From contig CANKQY010000015.1 in NCBI GenBank assembly GCA_947485745.1, positions 1 through 40,584 on the forward strand: a stretch of DNA of 40,584 nt, given 5' to 3'. The DNA is from Bacteroidota bacterium. GTDB taxonomy: Bacteria; Bacteroidota; Bacteroidia; UKL13-3. This document shows, piece by piece, positions 298-2,908 of the stretch. Position 1 is the stretch's first letter. Each line of letters starts with the position of its first letter. Under the pieces are notes generated by a model. That model worked only from the letters and a program-made list of their open reading frames with translations, was not told the DNA's origin and did not search any database. Both the position numbers and the translations under genes were made by a program.

Positions 298-1725
298 TTA
301 TTTATTTCCGTATCCTGCAAATTCAATGGTTTGAACCGAAATAAATTTGGTTTCCTTATTTTTCATTTGGAGCTTGTAGGTTTTTTCAGCTCCTTTTACA
401 CCCTCTTTGTTAAATGCTTCAAAGGTTATAGTTTGCAAGCCGGTATCAAGAGGAATTCTTGTATAGTTAATGGAATACGGCAATAATTGCCAATTGCGTG
501 TATCAGCTTGTTCAGAAATAACATTGTATAACATTGAAGCTGCAGCTAAAGCTTCTTGATCTTTATTTTGCTGTGCAGAGTAGGTAGCTAAATTTTTTAA
601 CGCTACCCTGCTTAATCCCATTGCCAACTCTTTACCCATTCTATCCTCTAAACTCTTAAAGGCAATGGCATTGACATCTTCGGCCAACTCTAACTCATAA
701 TTGTAATTATTTACAACTAATTGTGCTCTCTGGTAATAAGGTAATCTAGCAACGTATTTAGGCAAAGCAAGCTTAAAATACTTCATGTCTAAAAAGTCTT
801 TTCTTTGTTTATCATTTTCAACTCTAAAAGGAATAGCAATGCCTAACTCTGGGTTTATAAATTCCACCCAGCCATTATTATAAGGAATGATCATAATAGA
901 AATGGTTAATTGGTCCTTAATTGGGCCCATGCCATTATTCCATAAAAAAATAAGATTAGATTTTGTAGTTTCAATATCCTCGGCTTTGAGGAAAAATTCA
1001 GTTTCAAATGTCCTTACCTCATCATTAAAACCAACTAATTTTGCTGTTCTAATTAAATCCTTTTTTAGTTGGTTAGGAATACCTGTTCCAAAATTCTCGC
1101 GGTAATCCGATTTATAAATTTCATAGGCATTTTTATATGCAATGAAGGCATCGTTATACTCACCCTTTGAATCGTAAATAAGACCTATAAAATTATGTGC
1201 AAATGCATCACGTTTGTACTTGTTTTTGTTTTGATACTTATCAGTGATTTTCTGCATTTTCTCTAACATGCGTTTTCCTTCAACCAAAGCTTCATCTGAT
1301 TGACCTAAGCCTAAATAATTAAGCGCACCATAATAATGAAGGAGGATTTGTTCAAAATTTTCGCCTCCATAGGTACTCATATTAGCATTCACTAATAGGG
1401 TTAAAACCGCATCACTAACAGACTTATTGTAATCCTCAATAAAGAAATCGGCCTTATTAAAGTAAATATTGCTGTTTGCATAATCACCTTGCATCCATAA
1501 AACAGTTCCTTTATTGAGGTAAAATAAGAGCTTATTCCTAGCAGGTTTTTCCCATTTAGTGTCGTCCTCAAGCAAGTTGTTGGCAGCTTTAAAATTGCTG
1601 GTATATACTGCATTCATTAAGTCTTCACTGCGCTCGTAGTATGTTGCACAAGAAGGTAAAACGAAAACAAGAAATAAAAAAACGGCATAGTATGGTATGC
1701 CGTTTTTTGACTTAATAATTTTCAA
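298..1725 (-). CDS. Secreted lipoprotein with TPR-like repeats (COG3014-like)
   Basis: N-terminal signal with lipobox VLPSC; helical repeat-like body; adjacent to LpoB-like gene. Confidence 0.65.
   Translation of the reverse strand: MKIIKSKNGIPYYAVFLFLVFVLPSCATYYERSEDLMNAVYTSNFKAANNLLEDDTKWEKPARNKLLFYLNKGTVLWMQGDYANSNIYFNKADFFIEDYNKSVSDAVLTLLVNANMSTYGGENFEQILLHYYGALNYLGLGQSDEALVEGKRMLEKMQKITDKYQNKNKYKRDAFAHNFIGLIYDSKGEYNDAFIAYKNAYEIYKSDYRENFGTGIPNQLKKDLIRTAKLVGFNDEVRTFETEFFLKAEDIETTKSNLIFLWNNGMGPIKDQLTISIMIIPYNNGWVEFINPELGIAIPFRVENDKQRKDFLDMKYFKLALPKYVARLPYYQRAQLVVNNYNYELELAEDVNAIAFKSLEDRMGKELAMGLSRVALKNLATYSAQQNKDQEALAAASMLYNVISEQADTRNWQLLPYSINYTRIPLDTGLQTITFEAFNKEGVKGAEKTYKLQMKNKETKFISVQTIEFAGYGNK
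1676..1708. terminator. Intrinsic terminator AAAAAACGGCATA-ccatac-TATGCCGTTTTTTT (minus-strand sense) at the 3' end of the LpoB gene, inside the next ORF
   Basis: 13-bp perfect stem, 6-nt loop, T7 tract on minus strand, about 22 nt past the LpoB stop codon. Confidence 0.85.
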
Positions 1726-1730
1726 TGATT

Positions 1731-2318
1731 TTAGTTTTTAATAAACTTTTTGATTTCTTTTTCGCCAATCCAAACCTTTTCATTTGTTTCGAGATTGGTA
1801 AGCTCAAGATTAACTTGATACTTAACTGTTTTTTGGTTTTTGTATTGGTCTACAATGCTCATAATTACACCATTTAGCATGAAATCTGCGCCTTTTTCTT
1901 TACCCCATTTTTTTCGGGTTTCTTCGCTAGAAAATGTTTGTTGGTCGTTGCGCTCATCTCTCACTTCGTTTCTTTCTTCGCCACTCTGAACCACGCTCAC
2001 TGTTCCAGAATTAATAAATGATTTTTCAATATTTTTGATAAAAGTTCCAGCATCAATGTGTTCAGAGGTTTTATTTTTAACCTGACCAACAATAACGGTA
2101 GGTTTCTTGCTGTTTTTCATTTCAAAATTGGTTCTCCATGGCCTGTCCAGAACATCCTTGATCATTTCATCGGCCACTAATTTTGAATCGGTGTCGTTCC
2201 ATCTGCCGCTGATATCTGTTACGGTATTTGGATCCATGCGTTCAACCTTGCGAGAAGGACCACAATTACTAAATATTAATAAAGAGGCAATCCCTGAAGC
2301 TAAAAGTACTTTTTTCAT
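1731..2318 (-). CDS. Penicillin-binding protein activator LpoB-like lipoprotein
   Basis: MKKVLLASGIASLLIFSNCGPSRKV lipoprotein signal; DPNTVTDISGRWNDTDSKLVADEMIKDVL motif typical of LpoB family; ORF track start (2390) is likely too far upstream. Confidence 0.75.
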   Translation of the reverse strand: MKKVLLASGIASLLIFSNCGPSRKVERMDPNTVTDISGRWNDTDSKLVADEMIKDVLDRPWRTNFEMKNSKKPTVIVGQVKNKTSEHIDAGTFIKNIEKSFINSGTVSVVQSGEERNEVRDERNDQQTFSSEETRKKWGKEKGADFMLNGVIMSIVDQYKNQKTVKYQVNLELTNLETNEKVWIGEKEIKKFIKN

Positions 2319-2377: not shown

Positions 2378-2908
2378 ATGACCCTTTCAAAAATAGTAAA
2401 AAATGGCAAATACTTGCTGTTAATGTTAGTTAATATCTATTTATTAGGCTGTAAAACAAATGAAACTTTTACCATAAGTAAAATTGGAAGTGACCAAGTT
2501 TTGAATGGAAGTGTCCAGAAAGAAATACTTTTGGATCAAAAAAAATTCCCTTGGTTCAATTACCAATACAATAGTTACAAGCCAGACAGTTCCCAAATAG
2601 CCTTATTGAAGCGTGAATCAAAAAATGTTTTTGTATTAGTATTTGCAGGTTCTTGGTGCAGCGATACCCAACAAGAATTACCACGTTTCTATAAAATCAT
2701 GGATTTATGTGAGATTTCTAAAAACCAATATGATGTAGTTATGTTGGATCAGACCAAAAAATGTAGGTATATAAATGTGGATGCCATGCAAATAAAGAAT
2801 GTGCCTACTTTTATTTTTTACAGAGAGGGCAAAGAAATTGGAAGAATTGTAGAAAATCCTAGTAATACTTTAGAATCAGATATTTATAATCTATATCGGC
2901 CCAATTAA
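2378..2908 (+). CDS. Thioredoxin-like fold lipoprotein/secreted protein
   Basis: FAGSWCSDTQQELPRFYKIMD and NVPTFIFYREGKEIGRIVE resemble the thioredoxin fold with a WCSD active site (second Cys absent). Confidence 0.7.
   Translation: MTLSKIVKNGKYLLLMLVNIYLLGCKTNETFTISKIGSDQVLNGSVQKEILLDQKKFPWFNYQYNSYKPDSSQIALLKRESKNVFVLVFAGSWCSDTQQELPRFYKIMDLCEISKNQYDVVMLDQTKKCRYINVDAMQIKNVPTFIFYREGKEIGRIVENPSNTLESDIYNLYRPN

Follow-up and report, generated by a model that had tools for sequence, protein, structure and literature searches.

The gene pair and the hairpin written into it

The window, meaning the whole stretch of 40,584 nucleotides that was analysed, makes up contig 15 in a genome of 2.75 Mb. Related genomes come from uncultured Bacteroidota and include many MAGs whose record names point to freshwater as their habitat. 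Two lipoprotein genes follow each other on its minus strand (Table 1). The first had been described as LpoB-like in an earlier note, and a profile search confirmed that it belongs to the LpoB family (Pfam PF13036, E = 3.8e-43), its NCBIfam match (TIGR02722) staying slightly below cut-off. Its start is probably the ATG at 2318, with the mechanical ORF extending to 2390, and its stop lies at 1731 (stop codon included). The start of this mechanical ORF overlaps a thioredoxin-like lipoprotein gene (2378-2908, plus strand), the divergent neighbour of lpoB. The second gene encodes a 475-aa lipoprotein for which no named Pfam or NCBIfam family was matched beyond weak TPR matches, and a literature search found no report pairing LpoB with COG3014. 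A distant paralogue of it (~30% identity) is located in the same genome (G000:C10:4232-5572). The two-gene unit ends with the second gene, the neighbouring gene being convergent, and no conserved Bacteroidota promoter motif was found between lpoB and the second gene.

Table 1. Features of the lpoB locus, in positions of the window.
Feature	Positions	Strand	Basis
lpoB-family lipoprotein gene, first of the pair	1731..2318	-	PF13036; orthologues align from MKK...
Second gene, 475-aa TPR-like lipoprotein ("COG3014-like" in the earlier note), TTG start	298..1725	-	orthologues in 18/19 genus genomes
TTG start codon of the second gene	1723..1725	-	5 nt past the lpoB stop
Lipoprotein signal-peptide codons through the lipobox Cys, MKIIKSKNGIPYYAVFLFLVFVLPSC, with the predicted terminator written within	1648..1725	-	translation, alignment
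Predicted terminator hairpin with a 13-bp stem, a 6-nt loop and the core GGCATA-N6-TATGCC (1701-1684)	1677..1708	-	fold, covariation
U-rich tail that follows the final G-C pair, TTTTTTTATTTCTTG	1668..1682	-	U-tract score 6.08

The claim that a terminator hairpin lies about 22 nt past the stop of the LpoB-like gene and inside the second ORF was confirmed at 1708-1677 (minus strand), where the structure reads AAAAAACGGCATA-CCATAC-TATGCCGTTTTTT, followed by TATTTC and featuring a run of 7 U, and begins 22 nt past the lpoB stop. Its stem and loop fall within the ranges of intrinsic terminators (5-14 bp with G-C pairs, loop of 3-8 nt) and the U-tract follows directly, whereby the first six U of the tail pair with the A-tract. 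The hairpin is in frame and corresponds to residues 7-17 of the second gene (KNGIPYYAVFL), ahead of the lipobox VLPSC, whose Cys is codon 26. As the TTG at 1725 is the sole ATG, GTG or TTG from the in-frame stop to the lipobox Cys in the window, and as the n-region Lys precede the 5' arm or form part of it, the stem truly lies within the gene. A later start placing the hairpin outside the gene was considered and rejected, the window having no in-frame ATG, GTG or TTG from the hairpin to the Cys; the late TTG starts seen in some relatives would leave the signal peptide without an n-region. The following in-frame ATG is codon 37, past the lipobox Cys, so that the earlier statement that the hairpin is inseparable from the gene also held.

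The fold energy amounts to -22 kcal/mol, shuffled sequences averaging -8.8 (z = -5.2), with 0/200 shuffles being as stable. When synonymous codons were resampled with the peptide kept fixed, 21/4000 sequences reached the energy and 7/4000 the stem length of the window, and in ten relatives 0-121/4000 gave an equal or better fold energy. Across a genomic background of 440 kb with 346 ORFs, taken from this genome, the hairpin is the sole canonical terminator (U-tract score >4.5) within a credible ORF start; the sole other strong in-ORF match (L126, near 6607) turned out to be intergenic once the real ATG was considered. That such a hairpin arises by chance from codon bias and signal-peptide composition is refuted here by the synonymous resampling and by the frozen codons and covariation described below, even though signal peptides naturally have A- and U-rich flanks. 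The hairpin is neither chance nor a product of protein constraint.

Conservation, covariation and loss within the genus

The search covered 19 genus genomes, and the second gene was found in 18 of them; one member (97% complete) is without any match, which is either a loss or an assembly gap. Among the 18 orthologues from the genus, twelve have the stem in an equivalent position, in frame and 16-18 codons ahead of the Cys; the hairpin starts 22-27 nt past the lpoB stop, and its core lies 28-30 nt past this stop. Close kin are found among these twelve (L001/L002, L004/L006 and L015/L027), leaving about eight independent cases. In eight representatives, the core codons are frozen, identical codons being used in all same-residue pairs (GGC 28/28, ATA 28/28, TAT 28/28 and GCC 21/21), whereas the gene-mean codon identity in such pairs is 0.49; other frozen columns number none for Gly (14), Tyr (22) and Ala (23) and one for Ile. 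The signal peptide outside the frozen codons has diverged. Double-sided changes were identified at 8/13 pairs with 2.3 expected, a value reached in 0/500 shuffles and compared with 2-4 in slid controls, in an alignment which is small and phylogenetically structured and in which both double-sided changes of the core (GGCATA/TATGCC) come from the L013 row. In this relative, whose stem is decayed, CAACATA/TATGTTG replaces CGGCATA/TATGCCG. The flanking pairs co-vary as well (AAC/GTT, AGC/GCT, AAGAAC/GTTCTT), with G.U pairs in L007 and L016. Orthologue alignment, named earlier as the check on the hairpin, hence came out in its favour and demonstrates, on the level of sequence comparison, that the hairpin is kept by selection on its nucleotides with compensatory pairing.

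The core GGCATA/TATGCC is intact in 11/12 stem-bearers, the twelfth having one G.U. The inner core is more sequence-frozen in these twelve than pairing strictly needs, which could point to specific recognition. The core being intact in 11/12 is what speaks for a DNA operator palindrome or a dispersed repeat that happens to fall within the gene, a reading which we regard as very improbable: the core pattern occurs in only 0-6 copies per genus genome, with unrelated loops and contexts, hence not in the many copies of a dispersed or REP-like repeat, and the G.U pairs of two species break DNA symmetry but suit RNA pairing. A covariance model returned the locus between lpoB and the second gene as the top match in the stem-bearing genomes searched, and three off-locus matches that were inspected are ordinary gene-end terminators. 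No Rfam cis-regulatory family matched at gathering score, the best reaching 23.9 bits with 50 needed. A frameshift product joining lpoB to the second frame was rejected, given that the last lpoB codons vary (AAA AAC vs AAG AAC), that the relative frame of the two genes varies and that the stem lies >20 nt from the stop.

Six members of the genus do without the stem. In the protein tree the stem-bearers fall into two groups, and a clade with a decayed stem (L010/L012/L013/L014) is nested in one of them; in L009 and L011 the stem is absent and the spacers are longer. Within the decayed clade an apparent decay series leads from 8 bp (L013) over 6 bp (L010) to none (L014), with GG/CC to AA/TT as common change. 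A single clade of stem-bearers is rejected by the AU test (p 0.002), fitting either one origin followed by losses or two origins, of which one origin would be favoured by a core that is identical and identically placed. In the sister genus g5, lpoB and the second gene lie farther apart, and the gap contains terminators 10-60 nt past lpoB which comprise four unrelated stems and are ordinary and intergenic, between the same two genes. Most other genera possess neither the hairpin nor a gap terminator. In one g5 member (L018, minus strand), the stretch 77-170 nt past the lpoB stop has no ATG, GTG or TTG from the in-frame stop up to the signal-peptide core, and the second gene may start there at a rarer codon; other g5 members are likewise without an upstream ATG and apparently start at TTG.

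Terminator quality and the possible role of translation

The U-tract score is 4.6-6.1 in 10/12 stem-bearers and 4.4-5.6 in the g5 terminators (one having 3.5); in the four relatives whose stem is decayed or absent (L010/L012/L013/L014) it is 2.5-3.3. The terminator D score, a composite according to the d'Aubenton-Carafa formula, is positive in 12/12 stem-bearers (6-41) and ranges from -39 to -66 in these four relatives. Stem and U-tract were thus lost together, as expected for a terminator, with L015/L027 as the exception: here, the U-tract score is 2.92, falling short of a terminator U-tract, despite a strong stem (-16 kcal/mol). These two have a GAAA loop and an open frame that, followed upstream, enters lpoB and has an ATG at -53; their stem may have changed its role and serve a function other than termination. 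The hairpin might throughout serve processing or stability, or act as a roadblock to translation, with the U-tract a by-product of hydrophobic codons, and the h-region codons do partly account for the U-richness. The strong stem kept in L015 and L027 without a good U-tract is consistent with this, but the score drops along with the stem in the decayed clade and true terminators occupy the same gap in g5, which makes this reading quite unlikely.

The mechanism originally put forward was translation-coupled antitermination, meaning that ribosomes ending lpoB or reinitiating at the TTG would melt the hairpin and that the second gene would need efficient translation. In accordance with this, all relatives with the hairpin have their TTG start in the same position, 1-6 nt past the lpoB stop, and the hairpin start is close to the reach of a terminating ribosome (PMC4824070); however, the TTG is also retained in relatives without the hairpin. 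An exact 5-6-mer search in eight species, covering 700 nt upstream, found no shared antiterminator partner for either stem arm but only isolated short complementary matches far upstream in three species; the mutually exclusive antiterminator of a ribosome-mediated attenuator was hence not found among exact matches. Further, translation lowered termination by only ~10% at an E. coli terminator located 30 bp past the start codon, i.e., 30 bp into the ORF, the reason being that the ribosome seldom catches the polymerase within the first ~100 bp (PMC4824070). The proposal was therefore not supported, and we consider it unlikely. In E. coli, terminators placed > ~27-30 nt past a stop act at full efficiency, the repression by ribosomes being over, and stop-less message ends approximately halved upstream-gene expression (PMC4824070). 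By analogy, effects of the lpoB ribosomes on the hairpin are possible, since its 22-27 nt distance is near the 27-30 nt limit, and with the stem at 22-30 nt past the stop much of the termination should survive the ribosomes. A cis sensor would take this further: the ribosome ending lpoB would reinitiate at the TTG and melt the terminator, so that transcription of the second lipoprotein would report lpoB translation. This is a doubtful proposition; if true, a single DNA stretch would serve as signal peptide, terminator and sensor.

A probable partial attenuator between two operon genes

The reading we favour, with a probability of roughly two in three, is that selection maintains the hairpin as an intrinsic terminator which partially attenuates transcription between the two operon genes. 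Its action in vivo, its partial efficiency, the lowered output of the second gene and the role of the TTG are what we infer from the sequence comparison. RNA polymerase would transcribe through lpoB and the hairpin would fold on leaving the polymerase at the U-tract; some transcripts would end there, yielding lpoB-only messages, and the remainder would read through to give the second lipoprotein. Given that the second gene is the last of the unit and that no conserved promoter motif precedes it, transcription should pass the terminator, which must then be leaky or regulated. The purpose is probably to make less message of the second gene. With only 1-6 nt separating the start of the second gene from lpoB, a terminator at this place must double as signal-peptide codons 7-17, and the Lys/Asn-rich n-region (A-tract) and the Phe/Leu-rich h-region (U-tract) are already terminator-like. 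The invariant weak TTG plausibly limits ribosomes loading on terminated, stop-less messages: such ends are costly in E. coli, and by analogy a strong start codon would carry a cost here, which the invariant TTG suits, though it is kept also where the stem was lost. On the E. coli analogy, we prefer a partial attenuator that acts constitutively to a switch that senses translation, as the former needs fewer assumptions.

Intrinsic terminators that lie within operons and tune gene ratios likewise place stem and U-tract between co-directional genes with partial read-through expected, no downstream promoter having been found here either; the present one differs by lying wholly within the downstream ORF and encoding part of a signal peptide. 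With ribosome-mediated attenuators (pyrBI, amino-acid leaders) it shares a terminator in or beside translated codons, but these codons belong to a structural gene instead of a leader peptide, and neither an antiterminator partner nor regulatory codons were found. The synthetic construct W48 has its terminator 30 bp past the start and ~48 bp past the upstream stop (PMC4824070), yet it is an engineered E. coli system using lambda tR2, whereas the hairpin described here is natural and genus-conserved. Transcript ends within coding sequence, as predicted here, are also reported for E. coli, where most ORF-internal 3' ends were attributed to RNase processing or Rho (PMC7815308), in contrast to an intrinsic signal under dual coding constraint.

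The hairpin is real and under selection and is probably a terminator, which would make it a known mechanism in an unusual dual-coding placement. Its meaning lies in natural, genus-conserved dual coding, in which the same bases are export signal and, very probably, transcription stop. With the stem being kept, decayed or, in the sister genus, replaced by terminators in the gap, the locus offers a comparative system for the survival of in-gene terminators and the evolution of intra-operon ratios, which also bears on a possible co-evolution of weak start codons with terminators that yield stop-less messages. Discarding predicted in-ORF terminators wholesale as false positives would hence be unwise.
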